From Microcoleus sp. MP8IB2.171 (lineage in GTDB: Bacteria > Cyanobacteriota > Cyanobacteriia > Cyanobacteriales > Microcoleaceae), in contig JARCMA010000460.1 in the NCBI GenBank assembly GCA_030248405.1, positions 1-35,255 on the forward strand: 35,255 bases of DNA. The letters are read 5' to 3'. Positions within the stretch are counted from its first letter, which is position 1, and every line of letters begins with the position of its first letter. A model generated the notes under the pieces. That model saw only the letters and a program-made list of their open reading frames with translations, was not told the origin of the DNA and did not search any database. The translations under genes were made by a program, and so were the position numbers. This document shows positions 10,016 to 34,137 of the stretch, piece by piece.

Positions 10016-13000
10016 TTACTTCTTCTTATTTAATGCCTGCTTCCCAAACCCAAGACAAAGCAGTCGATCGCCCTCAGCAACATTCGGGTCATTCTGCAAA
10101 TAATCTCCCAACCATTCACAACTCCGAGCAATGATTTTATTCAGTTCAAAATTCTCCAAAGACCACAGAATTATAGTCCTATCGCTGCTAGCAAAAGCCA
10201 GAGTTTGGCTGTCAGAACTAAAAGTAACGCTCAACACGCGATCGCTCGATTCCAAAGTCTTCGATAGCAGCGCCTTCTTACCGTCAAAATCCCACAGTTT
10301 AACAGTATTTCCCCCACTCGCCGCCGCAATCAACTTGCCGTCGGGACTAAAACTCACGCTTTCTACAGTATCGCTGTGGTCGAGTTTTCCAGTTAAATTA
10401 ACCGCCTTGCCATCAAACCCCCACAAGTAAACTTTTTTGTCAGCGCAAGCAGCAGCAATAGTCTTACCGTCTGGACTGAAACTCACATTTTTAACGCTGT
10501 CCTCGTGGTCGATAGTTTTCAGAATCTTCGCCGACGAACCGTTAAATTGCCAGAGGTAAACTCTCTTTTCTCCGGAAATTTCAAAAGCCTTTTTCTTCCC
10601 GCTTGCCTTATCCTCAGCAGCGGTAGCAGTAGCAATAGTTTTGCCGTCGGGACTGAAGCTAACGCTAATTACTGGATTGCTGTGATCGAGTTTTGCAAGC
10701 AAAGTTGCTTTAGAACCGTTCCAGCGCCAGAGGTACAATTTGCGATCGGCATTGGCGGCGGCAATTATCTTGCCGTCTGGACTAAAACTCACGCTTCTAA
10801 CAATGTCGCCATGCCCCAGAGTATCTAACAGTTTCCCGTCTAAACTCCAAACTTTCACCGTTTTGTCATCGCTGGCAGAAGCAACAGTTTTATCATCAGG
10901 GGAAATGCTCACCCAGGTAACAGAATCCTTGTGACCTTCTAAGGTTTTGAATAAACTGCCGTCACTGCGCCAAAGTCTCACTGTTTTGTCCCCGCTAGCA
11001 GAAGCAATTGTTTTGCCGTCAGCACTAAAACTGACTTTGTAAACCCAGTTTTCGTGTCCCGATAAAATCTTATTCAACGGAGTGCTGTCCGGTTTCCAAA
11101 GTTTCACTATTTTGTCCTTACTTGCGGAAGCAATAGTGCCATCGCGGCTGAAAGTTACGGCTCTCACGTCGTCTTGATGTCCTCGAAAAGTGTTGAGCAA
11201 AGTGCCGCTGCGACTCCAAATTTTTACCGTATCGTCTGCACTACCGGTGACAATTTTTTCGCCGTCGCGACTGAAACTCGCGCTGACAACTTCATCGTTG
11301 TGTCCTTTGAGAGTTCTGATTTCCTCACCATTTCGGTTCCAAACTTTGGCTGTGGTGTCGGCACTTGCTGAGACGAGTTCTCGACTGTTGGGACTGAACT
11401 TAATGCTGTAAACAATGTCAGAATGTTTGGTTAATGTTTTGGGATTAATTGTAAATTTCTGGGTTTTACTTTCTCGGTTCCAAAGTTTGACAGTTTTGTC
11501 AACACTTGCTGAGGCTATTGTTTGGCCGTCGGGGCTGAAACTGACGCCGAGCACCCAGTCTTTGTGTCCGGTTAAGGTTTGCAGCACTTTTTTTTTCGCA
11601 AGGTTCCAGATTTTGACGGTGTTGTCGTAACTGGCGGAAGCTAGGGTTTTGCCGTCTGGACTGAAACTGACGCTGGTGACGATATTGCGGTGGCCGGATA
11701 AAATGCTACTCGCACTTTTGTCGTTATCTACTTGCCAAATTCTAATTGTACGATCGGCACAACCAGTAGCGATCGTTTTCCCATCGGGACTAAAACTAAC
11801 ACTCGTCACGCTATCCGGGTGATTGAAAGTTTTTAATAACTTACCTTCTTTGCTCCACAATTTAACAGTTTTGTCAGCACTTGCCGAAGCAACTGAATTG
11901 CCATCGGGACTGACACTCACATCCAAAACAAACTTGCTATGCTGCTCGAAACGGTTGCGTTCTTGCACCCCGGAAACTGATTGTCTGAGTCTCTCAGCAA
12001 TTTGATTTTTAGTATCCACAGGCAGCGCTGTACTTTTCAGAGAATCACGACCAATTTTGATACTATTTCCCAACACTCCTAATTGATTTTTTTCATTAGA
12101 AAGCACCAAAGCTTCCGACGCCGAATTTAGGGCATCAGTCCGACTTTTTTCTGCTTCTTGCCGTGCGCTTTCTGCTAATTTTGCTTGCTCGAATGCCATC
12201 CCTGAAACACCTGCGAGTACAAGCACTCCTAGAACCGCCGCCCGCAATTGCCATCTCCGAGTTTGGTAAAGTTGAGCTTCCGCTTGGTACTGTTTGTCTC
12301 TAGCTTCCGACAGCAAAGCATCTTGCTCTCTGTCTTTGCGAATTTGTTCGATTTCATCTCGGTTAATTTGGTTTTGCTTTCGCAGTTCCTCAACTTCTGC
12401 CTTTTTATCTAATTCTTGCTGCTGGCGAATGAAGCTAACTAAATAATCGTGAACTAGCTGATAAAGCTCTGCCGGTAGTTCCGTCCATCGAAAAACTAAA
12501 CCCGAGTTTACTAACAGTTCTAAGACTAAATCTAATTTATCAGCTTCAGCAAAGGTCGCTAAATTTGAGGCTAATTCTGCACGGGTTTTTAGGGGACGAA
12601 TCTGCTCTTCATCTGTGAGCAAATACAATACTCTGCGTGCAGCTACTTCATTCTCTGGCCCGCAATCTTTGATAACTTCTTCGAGAAACCTTTCGACTAA
12701 TTTTTGTTGCGGATTGTTGCCGAGTTCCTGATATTGACTTAAAGTTCTAATGTTCTCTTGTTGCAGTTGAGCGCCGACAAGTTGTAGTTCGATCGGGCGG
12801 ACTTCTCCCAATTCTCCAGCTAAATTTTTGACTAATTCTTCGATCAGCTCCGGTTCTAAGTAAAACTGCGCTCGCTCAGTTAAAGTGCGAATTACCGATC
12901 GCGCATCGACCAGCGAAAAATTTCCCAAATAAAACAGAATGTTTTTGCTGAGAATGTCCTCCAAAATATCATTGTTAACGAATCCTGTCTGGTTTTTGGG

Positions 13001-15199
13001 TCGGGAAAATTCCAGCAAATAGTGCAGGTAATCTTCCCGCAAACACAGGACGACTTTTAAGTATTTGATTTTCAAGCATTCCCGCAAAAAATCAAAAAAT
13101 ATTTGTCTTTCGGCTGGCTCTTTCCACACGAAAAAGAATTCTTCAAATTGGTCAAATATCAGAACAGTCACTAAATGTTCGGAATTTCTTTGCAGCTCCT
13201 TGATAATGTTTTCGTATTCGATCGCCTGTTGTTGTATGATTAATTCTACTGGCTGTGACTGCTCCCTTTGATCCTCATTATTCCCAGTCGAGCCACCGTG
13301 AAATCCCGAAATAAGATTTCCCTTGACTCCACCTGCTTCTACGGTCAAATCTACCGGAGAAATTTCAGGTACTGCTTCGGCAATTTCCGGATCGAATATT
13401 TCAGTTTTAAGAGCAGATAACTGTCTGGTCAATTCCCGCGGCCAGTTGTTGTAAACTTGCAGCACTACGGGCAAAACAGTCCGCATTTCTATTTTTTTTT
13501 GTTTGAGAGCTGGTACTAATCCTCCCGTGACTATTGAACTTTTGCCAACTCCAGACTGACCGTAAATTACTGTCAGTTTGTCGGGGGTATTGTTCATCCT
13601 ATATATCAAGCGGTTGAGGTCTTGCTCTCTGCCGGAAGCTGTAATTTCGTCAGCAATAGTAGCAGCGCCGGCAATAGTTTCGGCGACGGAATTAACCGCT
13701 TCTCTGTGCGGCTGCAACTTTCCGGCTCCAATAAAAGCTCGGAACCGATACGTGTGTTCCACCGCTCGATAATCTTGCTTAATTTGAAATGCTTCGAGAT
13801 ATTCTCCCCGCTGAAAATAGAGCGATCGCAGCATTTCTAAAACCCGCAAATACAGTTGCGGGTTGTAGCAAGGTTCGGTTTCCAAGCGAGCAAGCTCTAA
13901 ATGTGCGATCGCCTCCTGCACCTCACCCAACTGACTCTGGGCCTCTGCTAAAATTAACAGATATAAGCCTAGATGCTGCGACTTTACAGGGGTTCCCTGT
14001 CCCATCGCTTCTAAATTTGAGTTGAGAACGTCTAGAGCCACTAAAGCCCATTCTTTCGCCCCTTGCCAGTTCTTTTGCTCCAAGGCTACTCTAGCCAAAA
14101 AGCCGTAATCTTGAGCCAAATTAACTGCTGAATTTTCCATATTTTCATGTAACCTCCGAGCTTTGATAGCTAAATTCCAGAGTGCATCCCAATCTTCTAA
14201 ATGCTGCAATACTTCGCCAAGTTGATTGATGAATATACCAACGGCATCCGGCCGTCCCGCCCGTTCTAAAACATCAATACATTCCTGAAAATAATTCTTA
14301 GCTTCCGTCCAGTAAGGACGGTTGCCGCTGCGGTGTTGTTCTGCTTGGAAGCGGTAGCAAAGACCGATGTGGAATAGCAGAATTCCCTCTAACACCGGTG
14401 CTGGGTTAACGGTAAATAACAAATCACTAAATTCTGTTTTTGCTCCAATAAATGCTACTTGATACTTCCAAAAACTGAGACTTTTTTGATACAATTCAAT
14501 AGCCGCAGGGATGCGCTGACAAGCATATTCGTGCCTACCCCGAATAAATTGCAAACTCGCTTCAATAGCTGGTTCTAACCTGATGTTGCAAGTTTGCAAG
14601 TCTTGGCTAGCCGACTCTAGTTCACTCAAAGAATTGGCTCCGAGAATGGCAGAATTAGTTAAACGCCAATTGCCACTTTCTAAAATGTTGGAAAAAATGC
14701 GATCGGCACTTTTGCCCAGGAAATCCACCAAGTCGTCGGGGCCAATCACAAATTCAACGCTTGTCGTCCAAGTTTCGATATCTGTTACTAACCGAATCAG
14801 TTTTTTTAAGATTTTGTCTGTCACCCACAGCACCACCGGGAAGGGAAAATTATTCCGAAATTCTTCCCTCACGTAGTTGGTAGAAGTCAGCACTCGATCG
14901 ATCGCACTTACTGATTCCAATCCAAACACCATTAAAGCTGGCGGATGGCTGCAGGAAAGTTCGGTTTCTATCGTCGTGTAAAGAGTTTTAACAGATGCGG
15001 GAAGGACAATTTCTCGAATCTCGATACCAGACTCCTCCCGCAATTGCCTGACAATTTCCTCTCTCATGGCACTGTAATTGCACCGCACCAAAATCAGCGA
15101 AAATTGCCCCTGAGACATCGAGAGAGTCCGGGTGAGAGTTTGCAGCGAACTTTTGTTTTGCTGTGCTGCGGTGTCTTGCTGGCAGTGCGAATTAATCAT
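10016..15199 (-). CDS. nSTAND-type ATPase with N-terminal ATPase-like domain, TPR-like region, TM helix and 14 WD40 repeats (start reassigned from 15409)
   Basis: Walker A YGQSGVGKSSIVTGG, Walker B VTVLIFDQFEEFF; TM AAVLGVLVLAGVSGMAF; 14 WD40 repeats; ATG at 15199 (MINSHCQQD) is more plausible than the tandem-repeat-encoded N-terminus MPNFHPLHPLHPL. Confidence 0.9.
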   Translation of the reverse strand: MINSHCQQDTAAQQNKSSLQTLTRTLSMSQGQFSLILVRCNYSAMREEIVRQLREESGIEIREIVLPASVKTLYTTIETELSCSHPPALMVFGLESVSAIDRVLTSTNYVREEFRNNFPFPVVLWVTDKILKKLIRLVTDIETWTTSVEFVIGPDDLVDFLGKSADRIFSNILESGNWRLTNSAILGANSLSELESASQDLQTCNIRLEPAIEASLQFIRGRHEYACQRIPAAIELYQKSLSFWKYQVAFIGAKTEFSDLLFTVNPAPVLEGILLFHIGLCYRFQAEQHRSGNRPYWTEAKNYFQECIDVLERAGRPDAVGIFINQLGEVLQHLEDWDALWNLAIKARRLHENMENSAVNLAQDYGFLARVALEQKNWQGAKEWALVALDVLNSNLEAMGQGTPVKSQHLGLYLLILAEAQSQLGEVQEAIAHLELARLETEPCYNPQLYLRVLEMLRSLYFQRGEYLEAFQIKQDYRAVEHTYRFRAFIGAGKLQPHREAVNSVAETIAGAATIADEITASGREQDLNRLIYRMNNTPDKLTVIYGQSGVGKSSIVTGGLVPALKQKKIEMRTVLPVVLQVYNNWPRELTRQLSALKTEIFDPEIAEAVPEISPVDLTVEAGGVKGNLISGFHGGSTGNNEDQREQSQPVELIIQQQAIEYENIIKELQRNSEHLVTVLIFDQFEEFFFVWKEPAERQIFFDFLRECLKIKYLKVVLCLREDYLHYLLEFSRPKNQTGFVNNDILEDILSKNILFYLGNFSLVDARSVIRTLTERAQFYLEPELIEELVKNLAGELGEVRPIELQLVGAQLQQENIRTLSQYQELGNNPQQKLVERFLEEVIKDCGPENEVAARRVLYLLTDEEQIRPLKTRAELASNLATFAEADKLDLVLELLVNSGLVFRWTELPAELYQLVHDYLVSFIRQQQELDKKAEVEELRKQNQINRDEIEQIRKDREQDALLSEARDKQYQAEAQLYQTRRWQLRAAVLGVLVLAGVSGMAFEQAKLAESARQEAEKSRTDALNSASEALVLSNEKNQLGVLGNSIKIGRDSLKSTALPVDTKNQIAERLRQSVSGVQERNRFEQHSKFVLDVSVSPDGNSVASASADKTVKLWSKEGKLLKTFNHPDSVTSVSFSPDGKTIATGCADRTIRIWQVDNDKSASSILSGHRNIVTSVSFSPDGKTLASASYDNTVKIWNLAKKKVLQTLTGHKDWVLGVSFSPDGQTIASASVDKTVKLWNRESKTQKFTINPKTLTKHSDIVYSIKFSPNSRELVSASADTTAKVWNRNGEEIRTLKGHNDEVVSASFSRDGEKIVTGSADDTVKIWSRSGTLLNTFRGHQDDVRAVTFSRDGTIASASKDKIVKLWKPDSTPLNKILSGHENWVYKVSFSADGKTIASASGDKTVRLWRSDGSLFKTLEGHKDSVTWVSISPDDKTVASASDDKTVKVWSLDGKLLDTLGHGDIVRSVSFSPDGKIIAAANADRKLYLWRWNGSKATLLAKLDHSNPVISVSFSPDGKTIATATAAEDKASGKKKAFEISGEKRVYLWQFNGSSAKILKTIDHEDSVKNVSFSPDGKTIAAACADKKVYLWGFDGKAVNLTGKLDHSDTVESVSFSPDGKLIAAASGGNTVKLWDFDGKKALLSKTLESSDRVLSVTFSSDSQTLAFASSDRTIILWSLENFELNKIIARSCEWLGDYLQNDPNVAEGDRLLCLGFGKQALNKKK

Positions 15200-15252
15200 A
15201 ATTAATATTTGAAAATTTTTCTCAGGATAGGTGCTGTCAACTGTCGAAAAAA

Positions 15253-15543
15253 GGAAGTTCGGCAACGGATTATTTAACGGATGTAACGGATGGAAGTTCG
15301 GCAACGGATTATTTAACGGATGTAACGGATGTAACGGATGTAACGGATGGGAGTTCGGCAACGGATTATTTAACGGATGTAACGGATGTAACGGATGGAA
15401 GTTCGGCAACGGATTATTTAACGGATGTAACGGATGTAACGGATGGAAGGAATCGACGGATTATTTAACGGATGTAACGGATGTAACGGATGGAAGGAAT
15501 CGACGGATTATTTAACGGATGTAACGGATGGAAGGAATCGACG
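15253..15543. repeat. higher-order minisatellite: ~6 units of GGAAGTTCGGCAACGGATTATTTAACGG + (ATGTAACGG)1-3
   Basis: Direct reading; nested 9-mer count varies 1,3,2,2,2,1; the last units carry GGAAGGAATCGACGG in place of GGAAGTTCGGCAACGG. Confidence 0.95.
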
Positions 15544-17015: not shown

Positions 17016-17708
17016 CTATTTCGTCAAGCCGTGTTCGAGAGCGAAGCGAACCAACTCAGTACGGCTGTTAGTACCCGTCTTGCTAAACAAACGGCTGACG
17101 TACTTTTCCACATTACGCACGCTAGTTTCCAAGCGGCGGGCAATTTCCTTATTCATCAAACCTTGAGCAACCAAATCCAAAACACTTTGTTCTCGCGGAG
17201 TCAAATCAATTTTAATCGGCGAAGGACTTTGGGCGATCGAACTCCGCCCACTCAGCAAAGACTCAATTCTCGCCATTTGGCTTGTCAAAGCAGCAATATC
17301 TGGACTTTCAGCATTTTCGCTCGTCTCCTTAGCCGCCGCGCGGCGGGCCAGCAAATTGGTTACTATTGCTACTAATTCGTCGGGATCGAAGGGCTTAGAA
17401 AGATAAGCATCGCAGCCTGCTTGATAGCCTTGAATACGATCGCTCGTCATCCCCTTAGCCGTCAAAAACACCACCGGCAAAGCCTTATAGCGAGGATCTT
17501 CCCGCACTTGCTTGAGAAATTGATAACCGTCCACCTGGGGCATCATAATGTCTGAAATCACCAAATCGGGATTGTACTGCTGCAAGAGTTCCCACCCATC
17601 CCGAGCATTACTGGCAACCTCAACCGCAAAATCGCTATCTTCCAAATAAGCTTGTACTGCTTCCCGCAAGCCCGGTTCATCATCTACCAATAATAATCGT
17701 GCTAACAT
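17016..17708 (-). CDS. rre1: NarL/LuxR-family response regulator, Rre1/Ycf29-like
   Basis: REC domain LLLVDDEPGLREAV...VISDIMMPQVDGYQFL...KPFDPDEL and C-terminal LuxR HTH LTPREQSVLDLVAQGLMNKEIARRLETSVRNVEKYVSRLFSKTG. Confidence 0.88.
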   Translation of the reverse strand: MLARLLLVDDEPGLREAVQAYLEDSDFAVEVASNARDGWELLQQYNPDLVISDIMMPQVDGYQFLKQVREDPRYKALPVVFLTAKGMTSDRIQGYQAGCDAYLSKPFDPDELVAIVTNLLARRAAAKETSENAESPDIAALTSQMARIESLLSGRSSIAQSPSPIKIDLTPREQSVLDLVAQGLMNKEIARRLETSVRNVEKYVSRLFSKTGTNSRTELVRFALEHGLTK

Positions 17709-17874
17709 ATCCGTTACCCTTACGTTTTATCACTATTATCTTTGAATTTAGCCGAATTTAAGTCTTATTGTCACTCCATCCCTCGAAGGAAGTTAAAAAC
17801 TTGTTGTCCAACTCAAGAGTTTTGAGTTAGGTTTTGATCTAACGATGAAAAAGTTCTTAAATCTTTAATTCAAA

Positions 17875-17898
17875 ACTCAAAACTCAAAACTCAAAATT
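17875..17898. repeat. heptamer array (CAAAACT)n
   Basis: TTCAAAACTCAAAACTCAAAACTCAAAA downstream of the map stop codon. Confidence 0.85.
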
Positions 17899-17916
17899 AT
17901 TCTTGAACCGTTCCAC

Positions 17917-18744
17917 TTAAACTTTTGAACGATCGGTCAAAATTTCATAACCAGTTTCCGTCACCAACACAGTATGCTCAAACTGAGCAGACATAGCATT
18001 GTCAACCGTTACAGCAGTCCACTTGTCAGAAAGCGTCCGAGTGTACTTAGAACCAGCATTCAGAATTGGTTCGATCGCCAATGTCATGCCCGATCGCAAT
18101 TTCACGTTTGGCATTTCGCGGGTGCGGAAATTGAAAACCGACGGTTCCTCGTGCAAATTTCGCCCGACACCGTGGCCGGTAAACTCCTCAACGATGCTAA
18201 AACCGTTGCTTTTGACATGATCTTCGATCGCACCAGCCAGATCGAGCAAATAGGCTCCAGCCTTCACTTGTTCGATGCCTTTGTAGAGAGCTTCTTCTGC
18301 GACTCGGATTAATTTTGCAGATTCGGGAGTCACTTCCACAACTGCGATCGTAATGCAAGAATCGCCGTGAAAACCTTGGTAATATGCTCCCGTATCTACC
18401 TTGAGAACATCTCCGGCCCGAATTACCTTTTTGGCGCTGGGGATGCCGTGAACAACTTCGTTATTAATGCTAGAGCAAATCGAGCCTGTGAAACCGTGAT
18501 AGCCTTTAAAACTCGGAGTTGCACCCATAGAACGGATGCGTCTTTCGGCATAAGCATCTAAATCAGCAGTAGTCATTCCCGGTTTCACAATTTGCGAAAT
18601 TTCTTTGAGTACCGTTGCAACGATTTTCGACGCCTGCCGCATAATTTCGATTTCGCGTTCCGACTTAATTTCAATGCCTCGACGCTGTTTTGTGACTTGG
18701 GGTTGTTTAGTTGGCCCAGAAAGCAGACTGCTAAAAATATTCAT
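17917..18744 (-). CDS. map: Methionine aminopeptidase type I (start reassigned from 18897)
   Basis: [19 protein letters not shown]..., [55 protein letters not shown] at 18744 ([10 protein letters not shown]). Confidence 0.92.
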
Positions 18745-18886
18745 GTATTGATTGTCAGGTAATTTTGTACTTAGACGGCAGGTTGAAGCAAAAAAACGGC
18801 AAATATCCAGTTTTTTGTGGAAAAACGAGTGTCTTGTTCCGAACTGTCGATCGCTTGTCCTTTTAGCTAGCTTAATATTTTTTTCA

Positions 18887-20953
18887 CTAATCGGCACGGG
18901 ATTGGGGGGTCAATAAAGCGGTTTCAACCGCCGAGTCTGTCGGTTCAGGATTTCCGAGCATTCCTGTGAGGTTAGCAATTCCGGCAATTAACTTAGTGAT
19001 GTCAACTGGTTTAGATAAGTGCATCTGGAAACCAGCTTCCAGCGCTTGCTTGCGCTCTTCCTCTCTCGCGTAGGCTGTCAGGGCGATCGCAGGCATCTTT
19101 CCACCCCTGAGCCTTTCCATTTCTCTCACCCGCGCCATCAACTCGTAGCCGTCTGCTTCCGGCATTCCAATGTCGCTCAGCAGCAGATCCGGCCAATAAC
19201 TATCCAGTGCATCTAGAGCCCCGGCCACCGATGCCGCCGATCGCACCACAGCTCCTTCGTCTTCCAGTAAAGCAATCAAAAACTCCCGCGTGTCATCGTC
19301 ATCATCCACCACCAGCAATTGCAAATTAGCCAGAGTGGGGAGGGTCTGTGCCTGGTCATTGAGCTGCGACCAATCATCGTCAGCAGCGAGGGCGTTCCTC
19401 TGTGCAAGAGGTAGAGTCACCGTAAATTTCGCACCCTCGCCCGGATTATTTTCTGCATCCACCTTACCGCCGTGCTGTTCCACCAAGTGACGGACGATCG
19501 CCAATCCCAGTCCCAATCCCCCATAAGACCTAGTTGTGCTGCTATCAGCTTGGCGGAAGCGATCGAAAACATAAGGCAAAAAATCAGGAGCGATACCAAT
19601 GCCGCTATCAATTATCTGAATTTGAGCCTCATCGCCAACTGACTCCAACCGCACCTCTACTTTACCCTCTTGCGGACTAAACTTAATCGCATTTGACAGC
19701 AAATTCCACACAATTTGCTGCAAGCGATCGAAATCGCCGATAACTTCACCTACATTTGGACTGCACGTTAATTCTATGACTATTGATTTTTCCTCAGTCA
19801 GCGGCTGCAAAGAATCTATTGCCAGCTTGATCGCAGATTCCAACCGAATCGGATGCATATTTAAATTTAGTTTCCCCCGCAGAATCCGCGAAACATCTAA
19901 AATATCTTCGATAAGTTGAGATTGAGATTTAGCATTACGCTCAATTGTTTCTAGAGCTTTATCAATAGTGTCTTCGTCAAATTTTTTCACCCGAAGCAGC
20001 CTGGACCAGCCGAGAATTGCATTTAAAGGAGTGCGGAGTTCGTGAGAAAGAATCGCGAGAAATTCATCCTTCATCTGGTTAGCTCTCTCAGCTTCCTGCC
20101 GCGCCACTTGTTCGCGGATTAGTCGGCCGCGTTCTTCCTCTGCTTGCTTGCGGTCTGTGACATCTCTAACCGTACCCACGTGACCGATCAGTTTTCCCAA
20201 ATCCGAAAACATTGGCGACGACTGTACGTTAATCCAACGCACATCCTCGCTATCAGCTAATCGAAATTCACTCGAATATTCCTGACCTTTTTTAATCCAA
20301 GCTAACCAATCTGCTACTACGCGATCGCGGTCTTCAGGATGAACTGACCGCTGCCAAACTGATACCAAACTTTCCTCCAAAATTAACCCAGAAATCGCTT
20401 GACAACGGGGATTCATGTAAGTACAGCGGCCTGCAACATCAGCTAAGTAAATTCCCAGGGGCGAACAAGCACACAAAGTACGAAATCGCTCTTCACTTTT
20501 ACTTAATTCATTATTAACAGCAGCTAACTGTGTTGCTTGCTGTTTCACCTCGACTGTTTTTTGGAACAATTCCACAAATACCTGCACCTTCGATGTCAAT
20601 ATTTCCGGTTCCAAGGGTTTGAACAGGTAATCTACCGCACCCAAAGAATAACCTTTAAACACGTGGGTGTCATTACTGCTGAATGCTGTGATAAAAATAA
20701 TCGGAGTCGATCGCGATCGATCTCTAGAGCGAATCAATGTTGCCGTCTCAAATCCATCCATTCCCGGCATCTGCACATCAAGCAAAATTACCGCAAAATC
20801 TTCATTAAGCAGACATCTCAGAGCCTCCGCGCCCGAATTTGCTTTGACTAAATTGTAATACGGCTTGTTCAAAATAGCTTCCAGAGCCACCAAATTTTCT
20901 GGGCGATCGTCAACCAGAAGGACATTTACTCGATCGGAGTGCTGCACATTCAT
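18887..20953 (-). CDS. Hybrid histidine kinase: REC-PAS-HisKA-HATPase_c-REC
   Basis: [14 protein letters not shown] region; [35 protein letters not shown]-terminal [14 protein letters not shown]...[15 protein letters not shown]. Confidence 0.95.
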
Positions 20954-20960
20954 AATTTTT

Positions 20961-21698
20961 TTAATTTTTAATTGTTAGCAAGTTGACTAAACAGGGAGCG
21001 ATTTTAGACAGGGGTAAAATCCAGTCTACTTCAACATTTGCGATCGCAGATGCAGGCATTGTGCCGCAGAGAGCAGAAGCCGGTTCCTCAACAAATGTCA
21101 ATCCTCCCTCAGCCTTAATTTTTGCCAGCCCTTCACTCCCATCAGAATTAGCTCCCGTTAAAATTATGCCGATAACTTTCTCCCCAAAGGCATCCGCAGC
21201 AGACTCAAACAGCACATCGATTGAGGGCCGCGCGTAGCACACAGGAGCCTCAGTTGATAGTGCAAATTTAGGAGTTCCGCGATTGGGGATTAGGGATTTT
21301 GAATTATGGATTGACTCCACTGCCACGCTCCCCCATTCTGTAAAGTCGTTTTCATACAGGCTCAACTCCTCGTCAGAGGGCGATTCTATTAGCAAGTGAT
21401 AGTCAGCAGGAGCCAAGTAAACCCGTCCAGGTACGATCTCTTCTTTGTCTTGGGCCTCTGTGATTTGGAGAGAGCTTTGCTGTTGTAAAACATCAGTAAG
21501 CCTATCCTGAGAACTCTTATGGCGGTGTTGGACAATAACTACAGGCAAAGGAAAGCTTTGTGGCAAATCTGCCAGCATGACTGTTAAAGCCTGTAGCCCT
21601 CCCAAAGACGTGCCAACAACCACTATTTCAAAATTGTTTTTATTTAACTCGGCGGTAGAGTTTATCGCTACTTTCAATTGCTTCATAGTATTTTTCAT
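20961..21698 (-). CDS. cheB: CheB-type methylesterase domain protein (no REC domain)
   Basis: VVVGTSLGGLQAL, VVIVQHRHKS, GIILTGANSDGSEGL; overlaps the cheR 3' end. Confidence 0.92.
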   Translation of the reverse strand: MKNTMKQLKVAINSTAELNKNNFEIVVVGTSLGGLQALTVMLADLPQSFPLPVVIVQHRHKSSQDRLTDVLQQQSSLQITEAQDKEEIVPGRVYLAPADYHLLIESPSDEELSLYENDFTEWGSVAVESIHNSKSLIPNRGTPKFALSTEAPVCYARPSIDVLFESAADAFGEKVIGIILTGANSDGSEGLAKIKAEGGLTFVEEPASALCGTMPASAIANVEVDWILPLSKIAPCLVNLLTIKN

Positions 21699-22467
21699 AA
21701 GGTGTAAAAATCAGAGACTCCTGATGTCCCAGCCCTAAAACTCCAAACATTCCCAGACTCTCATAAAAAAGCTTGTGTACCCGCTCTTGGAGGTGTGAAT
21801 TGAAATAAATCATCACATTACGGCATAAAATAACATTAAACTCATTAAAAGAATTATCCGTTGCTAGGTTGTGGTGAGCAAAGACAATATTCTCTTTAAG
21901 TGAAGAGCGAAAAATCGCATTTTCATAGGCAGCAGTGTAATACTCAGAAAACGCTTTCTTGCCCCCCGCTTGGTGGTATAGTTGCGTATATTCTTGCATT
22001 TGTTTCAGCGGGAATATCCCCATTTTGGCTGTTTTCAAAACTAATTCATTCATGTCCGTAGCGTAAATCCGACAACGGTCATACAGTCCTTCTTCTTGCA
22101 GCAAGATTGCCATAGAATAGACTTCTTCTCCCGTCGAACATCCCGCGTGCCAAATCCGAATAAAAGGATAAGTACGCAGCAGCGGCACCACTTTATTTCT
22201 GAAACTAATGTAAAAGCTGGGATCGCGAAACATCGCCGTTACATTGACAGAAATGTCCAGCAGTAAACGATCTAGGTAAGCAGGATTGTGAAGTACCTTT
22301 TCCTGAAGTGCAGAGACAGTGGTGAGCCGTTCCGAGCGAATAGTGTTCCAAATACGGCGCTTGAGAGAGGCAAGAGCATAATTACGAAAATCAAATCCGT
22401 AATAGCGAAACATTCCCTCTAGTAAGAGTTGAATTTCGATTGTTTCCAGTTCATGGCTTTCGGGCAT
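21640..22467 (-). CDS. cheR: CheR-type SAM-dependent protein methyltransferase
   Basis: SVNVTAMFRDPSFY, IRIWHAGCSTGEEVYSMAILL, FNVILCRNVMIYF. Confidence 0.94.
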   Translation of the reverse strand: MPESHELETIEIQLLLEGMFRYYGFDFRNYALASLKRRIWNTIRSERLTTVSALQEKVLHNPAYLDRLLLDISVNVTAMFRDPSFYISFRNKVVPLLRTYPFIRIWHAGCSTGEEVYSMAILLQEEGLYDRCRIYATDMNELVLKTAKMGIFPLKQMQEYTQLYHQAGGKKAFSEYYTAAYENAIFRSSLKENIVFAHHNLATDNSFNEFNVILCRNVMIYFNSHLQERVHKLFYESLGMFGVLGLGHQESLIFTPYEKYYEAIESSDKLYRRVK

Positions 22468-22506
22468 TTTTAATTAGTAATTGATAATTAGTAATTGGTC
22501 ATATCG

Positions 22507-22540
22507 GTTCGTAGTGCGGACTGAAGTCCGCACTACGAAC
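22507..22540. repeat. perfect 15-bp inverted repeat with 4-nt loop
   Basis: GTTCGTAGTGCGGAC TGAA GTCCGCACTACGAAC. Confidence 0.95.
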
Positions 22541-22600
22541 GTATCTTACTGAGGTTAATCGATCGGACACGATATCATTGGTCATTGCTCCTTCTTCCTT

Positions 22601-22679
22601 CTGTCAACTGTCAACTGTCAACTGTCAACTGTCAACTGTCAACTGTCAACTGTCAACTGTCAACTGTCAACTGTCAACT
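22601..22679. repeat. heptamer array (CTGTCAA)11
   Basis: Direct reading; ends 7 bp from the stop of the poly-HAMP kinase. Confidence 0.97.
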
Positions 22680-22685
22680 CTTCCA

Positions 22686-25600
22686 TTATCGATAAAGCCA
22701 AACGCGCAGCAGCGAGAGCAACTGTTCCGTATCAACAGGCTTCGTGATGTAGTCAGACGCCCCAGCTTCGATACATTTTTCCCGATCGCCCTTCATAGCT
22801 TTCGCAGTAAGAGCAATCATTGGCAACGAAGCAAATTGAGGCATATTACGAATTGCTTGCATTGTTTCATAACCGTCCATCTCTGGCATCATCACGTCCA
22901 TCAACACAATATTTATGTCAGGCGTATTTTGCAATGTAGCAATGCCCTCTCTGCCGTTTTCAGCAAACACAATTTGCATTTGATGGCGCTCCAGCATACT
23001 CGTCAGGGCGAAAATATTCCGCATATCGTCGTCAACAATCAAGACTTTTTTACCCGCGAGCGTCGAATCTGTTTGATACAATTGCTCTAGCATTTGGCGC
23101 TTCGGTTCCGGCAAATTTGCTTGGACTCGGTGCAAGAACAAAGCCGTTTCATCTAACAAACGTTCAGGCGATCGCACATCTTTAACAATTATTGTTTCCG
23201 CCATGCGCTTGAGTTGAGTTTCTTCGGCTCTCGTCAACTCTTTGCCCGTATAAATAATAATCGGCAGACTTTTTAAAGCTGCATCTTGCTTGATCTGCTC
23301 GATCAGTTCAAAACCAGTCATATCTGGCAGTCCCAAATCGAGCACAATGCAGTCAAAATGCCCAGATTTCAAAGTTTCTAGCGCCTCTGCACCGCTACCC
23401 ACAGCCGTCGTTGAAACATCGTGATTGCCGATTAAATCCACAATGCTAAGACGTTGCGTTTCGTTGTCTTCCACAACTAGCAAATTCTTCACGGGGCGCT
23501 CCACAAAACCCTTAATATCAGTCAAAGCTTTGCTCAAAGCCTCATGACTGACAGGCTTTTGTAAATACGCGATCGCCCCTAACTGCAAACTGCGCTGCCG
23601 CCCTTCTTCAACTGATACAATGTGAACCGGGATGTGGCGCGTACTTGGGTCGTGTTTCAGGCGATCGAGCACTGTCCAGCCATCCATCACAGGCAAATTT
23701 AGATCCAGCATAATCGCAGTTGGCTTGAACTCTCGCGCCATTGCCAAACCGATATCGCTCCGTAAAGCCACCAAACCTTTAAAACCCTGATCCCGCGCCA
23801 TATCCAAAAGAATCCGAGCGAAGTTTACGTCATCTTCGATAATTAAAAGGATGCGATCGTCTGGCTCGACATTTTCCCGATCGTCAGCGATAATCGGTGA
23901 TGGATAAGGGGCGATCCTCTTCGAGGGCTCCGCTAACGGCAAGTTGAAATTCGGCGAAGGAACTGCAGAAGAAATAGCAGTCGGCAATTGAGCCCTTTGC
24001 TTGCCCATTCCCGATTCCTGATCATTCATTATTCGCGATTCTTGGTAAGTTGGCGGCAGATAAAGCGTAAATTTACTACCCTCACCAGCGCGACTCGTCA
24101 ACTTAATTTCTCCCCCTAACAGATTAGCAATTTCTCTACTAATAGACAAACCCAAACCAGTGCCCCCATATTTCCGGCTAGTGCTACCATCAGCTTGTTG
24201 GAAAGCCTCAAAAATAACCCTATGCTTGTCATCAGAAATCCCAATCCCCGTATCGCTAACCGAGAAAGCCAAAACAGTAGCAGAACTCGTTAAAGCTTCA
24301 ATCTCTAAACTCCACCCTTCCCGCACTACTTCGACATCCAACTTCACCTCACCCCGCTCAGTAAACTTAAAAGCATTAGAGAGAAGATTCTTCAAAACTT
24401 GTTGCAGCCGTTTAGCATCAGTATAGATACCTTTTGGCAACCCAGCCTCAAGCTCTACTTTAAAACTCAACTTCTTATCCAGAGCCATTTGGCGGAAAGT
24501 TCGATCCAAATGCTCTCGCAAATCCCCAAACAAAACTTGCTCAATATCCACCGACATCGTGCCCGATTCAATCTTAGCAAGATCCAAAATGTCATTAATC
24601 AGCTCTAACAAATCATTTCCCGCCGAGTAAATAGTGCGCGTGTATTCAACTTGCTTAGCAGTCAAATTGCCGTCAGGATTATCAGAAAGCAATCGAGCCA
24701 GAATCAACAGCGAATTCAGCGGAGTTCGCAACTCGTGAGACATATTTGCCAGAAACTCCGACTTATACTTAGAAGTTAGAGCCAACTGTTCGGCTCTTTC
24801 TTCCAGCAACGCCCTCGCCTGTTCGATATCTCGATTTTTCCGCTCAACTTCCTTATTTTGCAGCGCCAGCAATTCAGCTTGTTCTTCTAATTCTTCATTC
24901 GTTTGTTGCAACTCTTCCTGCTGATTTTTCAACAATTCCTCAGATGCGCGGAGCGACTGCGCCTGTTGTTCGAGACGCTTGTTAGTTTCCGTTAGTTCTT
25001 TTTGCTGAGTTTGCAACTCTTCTGTCAAAGACTGCGACTGTTTTAATAACTCTTCCGTCCGCATACTCGCCGCAATTGTATTTAAAACAATCGCGATACT
25101 TTCTGTAAGTTGGTCGAGAAATGTCAAATGTATTTCGCTGAAGCGGCGGAACGAAGCTAACTCAATTACTGCCGTCACTTGTCCCTCAAACAGTACGGGT
25201 AAAACCACGACATTCAGCGGCGCGGATTCTCCCAGTCCCGAGCTAATTTTAACGTAATTGTCCGGTACTTCCGTCAACAGTATTCGTTCTTTTTCCAGGG
25301 CGCACTGTCCGACCAAACCTTCGCCTAAATAGAATCTATTTCCTAACTGTTTGCGTTCCCGGTAGGCGTAGGTACTTAACAGTTTTAGAAACGGATCGTG
25401 TTCTACAGATTCCATCAAAAAGAATACGCCATGCTGAGCAGAAACCAGCGGTGTCAGTTCTGATAAAATTAGTTTAGAAACTGTTTCTAAATCGCGCTGA
25501 CCTTGTAGCATTCGAGTGAACTTAGCCAGGTTTGTTTTCAGCCAATCTTGCTCAGTATTTTTATGCGTTGTCTCCCGGAGATTGGCGATCATCTGGTTGA

Positions 25601-28247
25601 GATTATCTTTGACAATGGCAACTTCTCCTTCAGTAGCGACGGAAATTGACCTCGTTAAATCGCCTCTGGTAACAGCAATTGCCACTTCGGCGATCGCCCG
25701 CAACTGAGTAGTCAAATTCGCCGCCAATTCATTCACATTGTCCGTCAAATCTCGCCACGTCCCCGCCGCGCCCGGAACCTTCGCCTGGCCGCCCAATTTC
25801 CCTTCAATTCCCACCTCCCGCGCCACAGTAGTAACTTGATCGGCAAACGTCGCCAGCGTATCAATCATCTCATTAATCGTATCTGCCAGAGTCGCAATTT
25901 CTCCCTTAGCTTCCAGCATTAATTTGCGCTTCAAATCGCCATTCGCCACCGCCGTCACAACTTTAGCAATACCCCGAACTTGCGCCGTCAAATTCTCCGC
26001 CATCGAGTTTACATTGTCGGTTAAATCTTTCCAAGTTCCCGCAACTCCTTTCACCTCAGCTTGACCGCCCAATTTACCCTCAGTTCCCACCTCCCGCGCC
26101 ACCCGCGTCACCTCAGAAGCGAAGGAATTAAGCTGATCCACCATCACATTAATAGTATCTTTCAACTCCAGAATTTCGCCTTTAACATCAACGGTAATTT
26201 TCTTAGACAAATCCCCATTTGCCACCGCCTTCGTCACTTCCGCAATATTCCGCACTTGCCCCGTCAAATTCCCCGCCATCAAGTTAACATTGTCGGTTAA
26301 ATCTTTCCAAGTTCCCCCTACCCCGCGCACGTAAGCTTGCACGCCTAATTTGCCTTCGGTTCCTACTTCCCTAGCAACTCTGGTTACTTCTGATGAGAAG
26401 GAACTCAACTGATCCACCATGATGTTAATCGTGTTTTTCAGTTCCAGAATTTCCCCTTTGACATCGACGGTAATTTTCTTAGATAAATCGCCATTGGCCA
26501 CAGCAGTTGTCACTTCGGCAATGTTGCGGACTTGTGCTGTTAAATTCCCGGCCATCGAGTTAACTGAATCTGTTAAATCTTTCCAGGTTCCTGCAACTCC
26601 TTTAACCTCAGCTTGCACGCCTAATTTCCCTTCGGTTCCCACTTCCCTAGCAACCCTAGTTACTTCTGATGCGAAGGAATTTAGCTGGTCAACCATCGTG
26701 TTGACAGTGTTTTTTAACTCTAGGATTTCACCTTTAACATCTACAGTAATTTTCTTCGACAAGTCGCCATTTGCCACAGCAGTAGTAACAGCCGCAATAT
26801 TCCGTACTTGCTCTGTCAAACTACCCGCCATAAAATTAACTGAATCCGTTAAATCCTTCCAGGTTCCTGCTACGCCTCTGACATCCGCTTGACCGCCTAG
26901 TTTACCTTCCGAACCCACTTCCCTCGCCATCCGCGTTACTTCTGAGGCGAAGGAATTAAGTTGATCCACCATCACGTTAATGGTGTTTTTCAGTTCTAAA
27001 ATTTCGCCTTTAACCTGTACCGTAATTTTCTTAGATAAGTCACCGTTAGCAACAGCAGTCGTCACATCAGCAATGTTGCGGACTTGTGCTGTTAAATTGT
27101 TAGCCATCGAGTTAACAGAATCCGTTAAATCTTTCCAGGTTCCTGCTACTCCTCTGACTTCTGCTTGTACGCCTAATTTGCCTTCGGTTCCTACTTCCCG
27201 CGCCACTCTGGTTACTTCTGATGAGAAGGAATTTAACTGGTCAACCATCGTGTTGACGGTGTTTTTTAACTCTAGGATTTCACCTTTGACATCGACGGTA
27301 ATTTTCTTAGATAAATCGCCCTTGGCCACAGCGGTTGTCACATCAGCAATGTTGCGGACTTGTGATGTTAAACTGCCGGCCATGAAGTTAACGCTATCAG
27401 TTAAATCTTTCCAAGTTCCCGCAACTCCTTTAACTTCTGCTTGACCGCCTAGTTTGCCTTCGGAACCAACTTCTCTCGCAACTCTGGTTACTTCTGAGGC
27501 GAAGGAATTTAACTGATCCACCATGATGTTAATCGTGTTTTTCAGTTCGAGAATTTCCCCTTTAACATCTACTGTAATTTTTTTGGATAAATCGCCATTT
27601 GCCACAGCGGTTGTCACGTCAGCAATGTTGCGGACTTGGGCTGTTAAATTCCCGGCCATTGAGTTAACTGAATCTGTTAAATCTTTCCAGGTTCCTGCTA
27701 CTCCTTCCACTTCAGCTTGCACGCCTAATTTGCCTTCGGTTCCTACTTCCCTAGCCACCCGCGTTACTTCCGACGCAAAGGAGCTCAACTGGTCTACCAT
27801 TGTGTTAACAATTTGCGCTGTTTGGAGGAATTCTCCTTTGAGTGGTCTGTCTTCTATTTCTAGGGGGATGGTTTGCGATAAATCTCCTTTTGCTACGGCC
27901 CGAATTACTCTGGCGGTTTCTGAGGTTGGTTGCACTAAATCTGTAATTAGGGTATTGACAGAATTGACGCTAGCTGCCCAGGAACCCTCAACGTTGCCGA
28001 TGGTGGCGCGCTGGGCGATTTTGCCTTCTTTCCCGACAACTGTGCCGATGCGATCGAGTTCGGCGGCCATTCTCTGATTGAGTTCGATAATGTCGTTAAG
28101 TTCGTCAGCAATTTTGCCGGCTAGACCGGTCTGGTCTATGGGCATCCTAGCTGAGAAGTCTCCTTTTTTGACAGCTACTAAGGTTCTGAGTAGTTGTTTG
28201 GCATAAACATTATTTGGATTGGGCTTTGTTAGTTGTGCAGTTGACAT
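22686..28247 (-). CDS. Poly-HAMP hybrid histidine kinase: ~10 HAMP-type repeats, GAF, coiled coil, HisKA, HATPase_c, three REC domains (start reassigned from 28322)
   Basis: Repeats of [61 protein letters not shown] Asp sites [39 protein letters not shown] at 28247 ([10 protein letters not shown]) with SD AAAGGA. Confidence 0.95.
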
Positions 28248-28316
28248 TACTGTTTCCTTTGGGGAGTTGGAAGGGGTTTGGCGCGGCTCGAAGGCGTTGG
28301 TGGTGGAAGATATCGG

Positions 28317-28430
28317 GAGCATCTCAATGAATGCGAAAAAGCAATTTCTTTACAGTGCGATCGTCCCAGAAGAGCGAGTACAATACGCGAGCGGGGACGA
28401 TCGCACTATCAATGCAAAACTGAGATGCTC
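28317..28430. repeat. nested inverted repeat (possible MITE or structured RNA)
   Basis: Outer GAGCATCTCA / TGAGATGCTC (10 bp perfect), inner AGTGCGATCGTCCC / GGGACGATCGCACT (14 bp perfect). Confidence 0.85.
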
Positions 28431-32508: not shown

Positions 32509-33273
32509 ATGCGTCAAAACCAACTCAAACAAAAAATTAAACAAGGCGAAACAGTCCTCGGTTTATTTATGAACTGCGCTTATCCCGCATTCATGGAAAT
32601 ATGCGGTCACGCTGGATTTGATTTCGCCGTTATCGATATGGAACACGGCCCCCTGCACCCGCTTGCTGCTGAAGATTTGTGTCGCGCCGCCGACTGTACC
32701 GGAATTGCACCGATTGTTCGTGTCCGCAAAAACGACGGGCCGCAAATTCAACGAGCTCTCGACATTGGCAGTGCAGGCGTTCAAGTACCTCAAATTGAAA
32801 GCAAAATCGATGCCGAAACCGCTGTCAAAAGTGCTAAATACAGTCCTCTGGGCACGCGAGGTCTTTCCTTCGCTACGCGGGCAGGACTTTACACCGCCGC
32901 AGGTACAAATATCACCGATCGACTCAACGAAGAATCCTTAGTTGTGATTCATGTCGAAGGCAAAGGCGGCATCGACAACCTGGCAGAAATTGTTACTGTG
33001 CCAGAGGTTGACGTGATTTTTCTGGGGCCTTACGATCTGTCACAGTCGATCGGCATTCCCGGCCAAGTCCGCGATCCCCGAGTCATCGACATGATGCAGG
33101 AAGCAGTGCAAACCATCCGCAAAGCAGGCAAAGCCGCAGGTACTTTTGCCGAAAACCCCGAAATCGCCCAGCAGTGGATTGATGCTGGCGTTCAGTACGT
33201 CGCACTTGGGGTCGATGTTGCCGTTTTCCTGCGGGCCTGTCAGTCGCTGGTGAAAGCGGTCAATCGATTTTAG
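32509..33273 (+). CDS. HpcH/HpaI aldolase family protein
   Basis: LGLFMNCAYPAFMEICGHAGFDFAVIDMEHGPL, VQVPQIESK, VDVIFLGPYDLSQSIGIPGQ. Confidence 0.94.
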   Translation: MRQNQLKQKIKQGETVLGLFMNCAYPAFMEICGHAGFDFAVIDMEHGPLHPLAAEDLCRAADCTGIAPIVRVRKNDGPQIQRALDIGSAGVQVPQIESKIDAETAVKSAKYSPLGTRGLSFATRAGLYTAAGTNITDRLNEESLVVIHVEGKGGIDNLAEIVTVPEVDVIFLGPYDLSQSIGIPGQVRDPRVIDMMQEAVQTIRKAGKAAGTFAENPEIAQQWIDAGVQYVALGVDVAVFLRACQSLVKAVNRF

Positions 33274-33306
33274 ATTTTAGATTTTAGATTTTGGATTTTG
33301 GATTAA
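33271..33306. repeat. heptamer array (GATTTTA)n overlapping the aldolase stop codon
   Basis: GATTTTAGATTTTAGATTTTAGATTTTGGATTTTGGATTA. Confidence 0.9.
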
Positions 33307-33363
33307 AAGAAGAACCAGCCCCCGGATTCATCTTGCAAACTTTACGATATCTTTGCAATTTTT

Positions 33364-33405
33364 GTAGTGTCTTTTACGACACATACAAAAAACCTGCGCT
33401 AGAGT
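33364..33405 (+). promoter_or_regulatory. putative NtcA-activated promoter
   Basis: GTA (33364-66) N8 TAC (33375-77) N22 TAGAGT (33400-05): exact GTA-N8-TAC-N22-TAN3T, 64 bp upstream of the ATG at 33469. Confidence 0.75.
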
Positions 33406-33468
33406 AGAAGCATACACCTCCTCAAGGCTAAATTAGGGAGGGGAGCAAGGCTTCATGGAGAAAAATCT

Positions 33469-34137
33469 ATGAAAACGGTATTAGAATCCATTCATTTGGA
33501 TTATGCTTTCATGTTTACTTTCAAAAAAGTAAACTCGATTAAGCTAGAAGGTTTCAAGGAATTTTTTGACGATATGCCTGTCGATCCGTATGTGAAAGGT
33601 AAGTATCGTTCTAGAAGATTATCGCGGTTTGCAGTCAACGGAAATGAGTTAGTTAAGTTACCTCACGGCTATTTGTATCAAAGCAAAACATACAATCCGC
33701 TAGTGGGTGATATCAGGCGGGAATTTGCCGAATTGGACGATCGACTAATCGCCCTCGATAATTTCAAACAGATGATTTTTGCTTTTTTCGATTCCTGCAA
33801 AATTCACCCAGAAGCTGAAATCGGCATCCATCAAATCAGGACGACTTGTTCGCCGCACAATTTCGGAAACCCCGCACCGGAAGGAATTCACCAAGACGGT
33901 ACTGATTTTATCGGGATTTTCTCGGTTGACAGAACTAATATTGTAGGCGGGGAAACGCATTTGTACTTGGCTAAAAAAGAGAAGCCTGTTTTTAATAAAA
34001 TTCTGCATCCGGGAGAATTGCTGTTAGTTAACGACCACGAGTTTTTCCACTTTACTACGCCGATTAAACCGGAATCGGAAGGGGTGGGAACCAGGGATGT
34101 CTTTGTGTTGACTTCTCCGAGTTTGCTTTGCGATTGA
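33469..34137 (+). CDS. 2OG-Fe(II) dioxygenase family protein (amino-acid hydroxylase-like, 2OG-Fe_Oxy_2 type)
   Basis: HxD in GIHQDGTDFIG, distal His in NDHEFFHFTTPI, Arg in GTRDVFVLTSPSL; SD GGAG 8 nt before the ATG. Confidence 0.85.
   Translation: MKTVLESIHLDYAFMFTFKKVNSIKLEGFKEFFDDMPVDPYVKGKYRSRRLSRFAVNGNELVKLPHGYLYQSKTYNPLVGDIRREFAELDDRLIALDNFKQMIFAFFDSCKIHPEAEIGIHQIRTTCSPHNFGNPAPEGIHQDGTDFIGIFSVDRTNIVGGETHLYLAKKEKPVFNKILHPGELLLVNDHEFFHFTTPIKPESEGVGTRDVFVLTSPSLLCD

Follow-up and report, generated by a model that had tools for sequence, protein, structure and literature searches.

The dioxygenase locus

In the window, that is, the whole stretch of 35,255 nucleotides of Microcoleus DNA analysed here, a gene encoding a 2-oxoglutarate (2OG)-dependent dioxygenase lies directly downstream of a gene for an HpcH/HpaI-type aldolase, with a gap of 195 nt between the two. 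This gap contains what appears to be an activator-dependent promoter, followed by a short leader with a hairpin at its extreme 5' end (Table 1). Among named relatives, Microcoleus vaginatus HSN003 (99 per cent identity) and FACHB strains are the nearest to the window. Two repeat arrays are also found here: a short heptamer array, (GATTTTA/G)n, at 33266-33304 between the aldolase and dioxygenase genes, and tandem 11-nt repeats of the type ATATCTTTRCR at 33336-33358, directly upstream of the promoter element, which are likewise present in L006 and L012 and reach three or four copies in some relatives. Elsewhere, the window encodes a kinase-WD40 protein (2746-5247), an nSTAND-WD40 protein of 1797 aa (10016-15409) and a signalling cluster (17016-28322) comprising CheB, CheR, a LuxR-type response regulator and a 1878-aa hybrid histidine kinase with many HAMP domains.

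Table 1. Features of the aldolase-dioxygenase locus, in coordinates of the window.
Feature	Position	Strand	Basis
HpcH/HpaI-type aldolase, 254 aa	32509..33273	+	Pfam E 1.2e-37; linkage and co-occurrence with the dioxygenase
Conserved promoter element TTTTTGTAGT-N4-TTnRCnACA	33359..33381	+	Contains GTA-N8-TAC (33364-33377); 96-promoter alignment, native NtcA matrix
Imperfect 19-bp palindrome TGTAGT-N7-ACGACA, alternative reading	33363..33381	.	Centre 33372; best column symmetry
Possible weak -35, ACGACA	33376..33381	+	18 bp from the -10; overlaps the right half-site; putative role
-10 box TAGAGT	33400..33405	+	TATACT in most orthologues
Predicted transcription start	33412	+	-41.5 from the GTA-N8-TAC centre; placed by the -10 and the hairpin
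Leader hairpin, stem 33417-33422 with 33436-33441 (CCTCCT/GGGAGG)	33417..33441	+	Pairing and covariation
Shine-Dalgarno GGAG	33457..33460	+	Sequence
PF10014 2OG-Fe dioxygenase, 222 aa (P0001)	33469..34137	+	Pfam E 3.5e-66; fold; catalytic residues

An earlier note on this DNA had described an exact class-II NtcA promoter, in which GTA-N8-TAC is followed by 22 nt and TAGAGT, and a Shine-Dalgarno sequence ahead of the dioxygenase reading frame. As a reading of the letters, both descriptions are correct, since GTAGTGTCTTTTAC, the 22-nt spacer GACACATACAAAAAACCTGCGC and TAGAGT follow one another exactly as claimed, and GGAG precedes the ATG within a leader of 57 nt. With regard to chance, GTAN8TAC alone occurs four times in the window against 2.9 expected, its combination with N20-24 and TAN3T twice against 0.46 expected, and the form with exactly N22 once against 0.11 expected. 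The chance of finding the GTAN8TAC class-II pattern in a single 150-nt upstream region is about 0.0007; for a given promoter such a match is improbable, but in a 35-kb window it is unremarkable. As 0.46 matches are expected per window, the bare pattern carries little weight and the case rests on the comparison of orthologues.

Conservation of the promoter among orthologues

The dioxygenase has a match in 80 of 149 relatives, with about 69 near-full-length orthologues. Eighty named loci were fetched, and 96 orthologous promoters were aligned, with a non-redundant subset of 40. The typical element in these 96 promoters reads TTTTTGTAGT-N4-TTnRCnACA and lies 18 bp before TATACT. Within it, the bases T, G, T and A at 33363-33366 are conserved at 100, 99, 99 and 96 per cent, the two T at 33373-33374 at 95 and 98 per cent, the C at 33377 at 96 per cent, and A, C and A at 33379-33381 at 93, 89 and 86 per cent. 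The -10 box is conserved as T100 A100 N A98 N T100, and its distance from the element is nearly invariant. Of the 96 promoters, 89 retain GTA at its distance from the -10, and 87 show the -41.5 geometry, expressed as GTAN9[A/G]C followed by N21-23 and a TAN3T box (33 of the 40 in the non-redundant subset). Moreover, the element is intact in four genomes (L031, L035, L065 and L121) despite an insertion or rearrangement that puts 190-270 nt between promoter and gene.

The exact motif has fared differently. The earlier note had tied its reading to the conservation of GTA-N8-TAC in orthologous promoters, and the motif is not conserved, as the strict form is present in only 24/96 promoters and 8/40 non-redundant ones. 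The last triplet is TAC, GAC, AAC or AGC depending on the orthologue, with its first T at chance level (25 per cent of the 96 promoters, 20 per cent of the 40). Of the relaxed forms, GTAN9AC is found in 77/96 and 25/40 promoters, and GTN10[A/G]C in 90/96 and 36/40. Judged from the alignment, the promoter geometry is conserved, selection does not maintain the exact GTAN8TAC consensus, and the 'exact' match of the window is a lineage accident. It is thus this conservation across orthologues, rather than the match itself, that makes the site more than chance, and a real, conserved promoter of the activator type (class-II, CRP-type) appears to drive the dioxygenase gene.

Comparison with NtcA sites of the same clade

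Among the canonical targets of NtcA are urtA and glnA, and the robust NtcA core derived from ChIP is GTN10AC (PMC3898017). In the same clade, urtA carries TTTTGTATC-N6-TACAAC followed at N22 by a TAATAT-type -10, with the strict motif in 29 of 40 loci; in the non-strict loci, the T of TAC drifts to A, G or C. The glnA promoter of the window's own genome presents TTTTGTAGCCCTAGATACAAAA with TACGAT at N22. The layout of the dioxygenase promoter is that of these two promoters, and it shares with the class-II NtcA promoters of Anabaena (glnA, urtA, nirA and ntcB; PMC3898017) the TTTTGTA left half, the N22 spacing to a TAN3T -10 and the centre at -41.5. Unlike canonical NtcA promoters, it has a degenerate right half, T at positions 5, 10 and 11 instead of C5 and purines, and a low matrix score. 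The loss of the T of TAC is compatible with NtcA, since the same T drifts in urtA and the ChIP core does not include it.

A native NtcA matrix was built from 34 non-redundant sites, and in leave-one-out scoring these known sites reach a median of 23.5 bits and never fall below 7.4. For the dioxygenase promoters the median is 9.0 bits and the best score 21.4, whereas the site in the window scores 6.4 bits, which is under the lowest known site and is exceeded at eight unrelated positions of the window. The left half has a median p of 3.3e-4 in the dioxygenase promoters versus 1.4e-4 in the known sites; of the 40 non-redundant promoters, 78 per cent have a right half with p<0.05, and the whole site has a median p of 2.6e-4. 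The inner eight bases score like random DNA, even though T10 and T11 are conserved at 95-98 per cent. NtcA sites avoid T at positions 5, 10 and 11, the very base that is conserved there in the dioxygenase promoters. This profile would fit either a weak NtcA site with one good half or another kind of site that shares the left half. The class-II NtcA claim of the earlier note is partly supported: the -41.5/N22 geometry and the left half, which resembles urtA and glnA, speak for it, and the exact motif and the matrix score of the window's site speak against it as worded.

No strict class-II site was found in the ntcA upstream regions (L220-L249), and these were left out as a control. The ntcA promoter is described in the literature as non-canonical, which is consistent with the lack of a strict class-II site there.

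Which regulator acts at the element

NtcA or another activator of the CRP family is plausible at the conserved element, and NtcA appears to be the leading candidate, with chances that we consider about even. If so, NtcA loaded with 2OG would most likely act as the activator at -41.5, held by the strong upstream half-site TTTTTGTA and, more weakly, by a downstream half-site that is degenerate in part and shares bases with a poor -35.

The alternative that survives best, which seems less probable and still deserves serious attention, is that the element is the operator of a different regulator. It would then be a 19-bp palindrome of imperfect symmetry, TGTAGT-N7-ACnACA, which has its centre at 33372 and overlaps the -35, with GTA-N8-TAC lying inside it by coincidence. 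This axis gives the best column symmetry, 2.07 versus 1.76 for the NtcA axis at 33370.5, although the difference is small. It would also account for the conservation of G33367, T33368, the TT at 33373-33374 and the ACA at 33379-33381 outside the NtcA core, next to a T of TAC that is free to vary, and for inner bases that match NtcA no better than random. However, the palindrome leaves aside that both the spacing and the left half are the same as in true NtcA promoters, and the ACA may belong to the -35: if it forms the 3' half of a -35 of the type RCnACA, 18 bp from the -10, its conservation would be explained without a second protein. Nor does the motif appear to define a regulon. When the window's own genome was searched for TGTAGTN4TTn[A/R]CnACA, a tight form of the motif, with 2 mismatches allowed, the matches were not enriched over a reversed control, and across 100 genomes only the dioxygenase promoters recur, most other matches being intragenic.

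It is improbable that the NtcA match is pure chance in an ordinary sigma-70 promoter, where the conserved bases would be the -35 and UP-like sequence. The expected frequency of the full pattern per window and the presence of a core promoter, RCnACA-N18-TATACT, would agree with this, but the TGTA at 33363-33366 shows 96-100 per cent conservation, at a fixed distance and in many families, and the element persists even where promoter and gene have been parted. Marginally weaker still is a FurC (PerR) box, which would make the gene responsive to peroxide or redox conditions instead of nitrogen: the published box of Anabaena sp. PCC 7120 (PMC10406281) has the same 19 bp, axis and GTAGTCA-like half-site, and some boxes, for example CGTAGTCATTATGAATTTA, are similar to the site TGTAGTCATTTTGACGACA of the orthologue in L034, but the central TT conflicts with the FurC core AT/AC, and a matrix of 22 EMSA-positive boxes gives p 0.045 for the window and a median p of 0.009 for the orthologues against 2.6e-4 with the NtcA matrix, which rejects FurC as a general explanation.

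The dioxygenase

The earlier note had assigned the reading frame to the 2OG-dependent dioxygenases, and this assignment is confirmed by a match to PF10014 (2OG-Fe_Oxy_2) of 223 bits against a cut-off of 23.1. The AlphaFold model of the protein, with a mean pLDDT of 83, matches the folds of HrmJ (Foldseek E 1e-16), BelL and the Bacillus thuringiensis IDO. The HxD...H triad is intact, with H141, D143 and H194 invariant, and R209 is present in 23/24 sequences; the roles of these residues as Fe(II) triad and 2OG-binding arginine were assigned by alignment to HrmJ. Despite having the same Pfam family, fold and HxD...H motif as IDO (B. thuringiensis), HilB (Pantoea), HrmJ and BelL (Streptomyces), the dioxygenase of the window is only about 20-28 per cent identical to these enzymes. 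Its score against the HilB equivalog, 34.6 bits, is far below the cut-off of 350, and its neighbour is an aldolase, whereas the neighbours in the Hil operon are a dehydrogenase and a second dioxygenase.

Characterised PF10014 enzymes place a hydroxyl group on C4 of free L-Leu, L-Ile and L-Thr (PMC3684760), and the homologues BelL and HrmJ abstract hydrogen from C4, BelL acting on 6-nitronorleucine (PMC10764440). Because the known enzymes act there, a free L-amino acid attacked at C4 offers the best guesses for the substrate and the position. An amino acid or a peptide had been proposed previously as the target of hydroxylation; the former is strengthened by the fold matches and by the aldolase partner, and a peptide substrate is less supported. 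The literature searched contained no described function for any cyanobacterial PF10014 enzyme, and nothing linking a cyanobacterial PF10014 enzyme or HpaI aldolase to NtcA.

The gene is single-copy in most relatives. In Calothrix brevissima NIES-22 (L027) it is tandemly duplicated (1856-2524 and 3001-3669), and the promoter of the first copy lacks GTAGT and ACGACA, reading GTATT ... ACGCTA. In many Nostocales and some other families (L027, L028, L030, L046, L056, L059, L118 and L127), the dioxygenase adjoins a protein that starts with MKIRTITTG, presumably a member of the DUF711 family, and often an SfsA-like protein.

The aldolase partner

The aldolase is recognised by Pfam at 129.8 bits against a cut-off of 25, and its nearest solved relatives are HpaI-type enzymes and YfaU. 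It belongs to the same Pfam family as the class II aldolases HpaI, YfaU and GarL and keeps the putative catalytic residues, but scores below every NCBIfam equivalog cut-off, including that of HpaI, whose substrate is 4-hydroxy-2-oxoheptanedioate (187 versus 368.8 bits). The residues H46, R71, E150 and D176, which are invariant in 11 orthologues, are those that we take as the counterparts of the catalytic and metal-binding residues in HpaI.

An aldolase gene is found on the same strand and just upstream of the dioxygenase in 49/100 loci, in lineages that include Microcoleus, Okeania, Trichodesmium, Oscillatoria, several other families and the Hassallia/Tolypothrix/Plectonema/Spirirestis group. 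Most other Nostocales keep the dioxygenase and its promoter and have no adjacent aldolase, so that the aldolase is not obligatory. Over 149 genomes, both genes are present in 62, the dioxygenase only in 7, the aldolase only in 0 and neither in 80 (Fisher p 2e-34, a value inflated by relatedness), and G007, a genome of the same genus, is devoid of both. The gene pair is apparently undescribed. A promoter of the shared type for the aldolase itself was considered and rejected, as its own upstream region is unconserved and holds no conserved element or NtcA-like site.

A possible route of amino-acid breakdown

HpaI-type aldolases cleave 4-hydroxy-2-oxo acids, and the pairing with a dioxygenase of this family therefore suggests C4 hydroxylation, deamination and retro-aldol cleavage. 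The PF10014 enzyme would hydroxylate a free L-amino acid, probably at C4, with 2OG being spent and succinate and CO2 released. In most non-heterocystous lineages, an unlinked transaminase would probably deaminate the 4-hydroxy amino acid to the 4-hydroxy-2-oxo acid, which the neighbouring aldolase, presumably working in the direction of cleavage, would split into pyruvate (or a homologue) and an aldehyde or ketone. No transaminase gene was seen beside the pair in the loci inspected, and the deamination step is thus assumed.

The whole reading, in which a class-II promoter with NtcA as its most likely activator drives a C4-hydroxylating dioxygenase that feeds an aldolase route, is given a probability of roughly 0.48. 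The more ambitious proposal seems unlikely by comparison, namely that filamentous cyanobacteria possess an uncharacterised amino-acid breakdown route that is induced when the nitrogen regulator, loaded with 2OG, binds a degenerate class-II site, and that combines C4 hydroxylation, transamination to glutamate and a dedicated HpaI-type aldolase. If true, 2OG would be effector, co-substrate and amino acceptor within one circuit. The earlier note had suggested that nitrogen starvation induces the hydroxylation step, which would drain or sense 2OG; both links are conjectural. Should NtcA be the regulator, a 2OG-consuming enzyme would be placed under a 2OG-sensing regulator, with possible feedback on the carbon/nitrogen signal; should it be another protein, the element would represent a conserved site of a cyanobacterial regulator awaiting assignment. 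Both the regulator and the pathway can be put to the test, given how strongly the promoter is conserved and that the aldolase was in no case seen on its own.

The leader hairpin

The hairpin sits just after the predicted start site, a position that fits initiation at 33412. Its strands pair in 77.8 per cent of the alignment cells, compared with 47-66 per cent in slid controls, and 13 double-changed cells were counted against 4.4 in shuffles, so that covariation lends moderate support to a conserved leader hairpin. A search of the leader for known RNA families gave no convincing match. The CCTCC strand of the stem could pair alternatively with the Shine-Dalgarno sequence, and the hairpin may act on mRNA stability or in the masking of this sequence.
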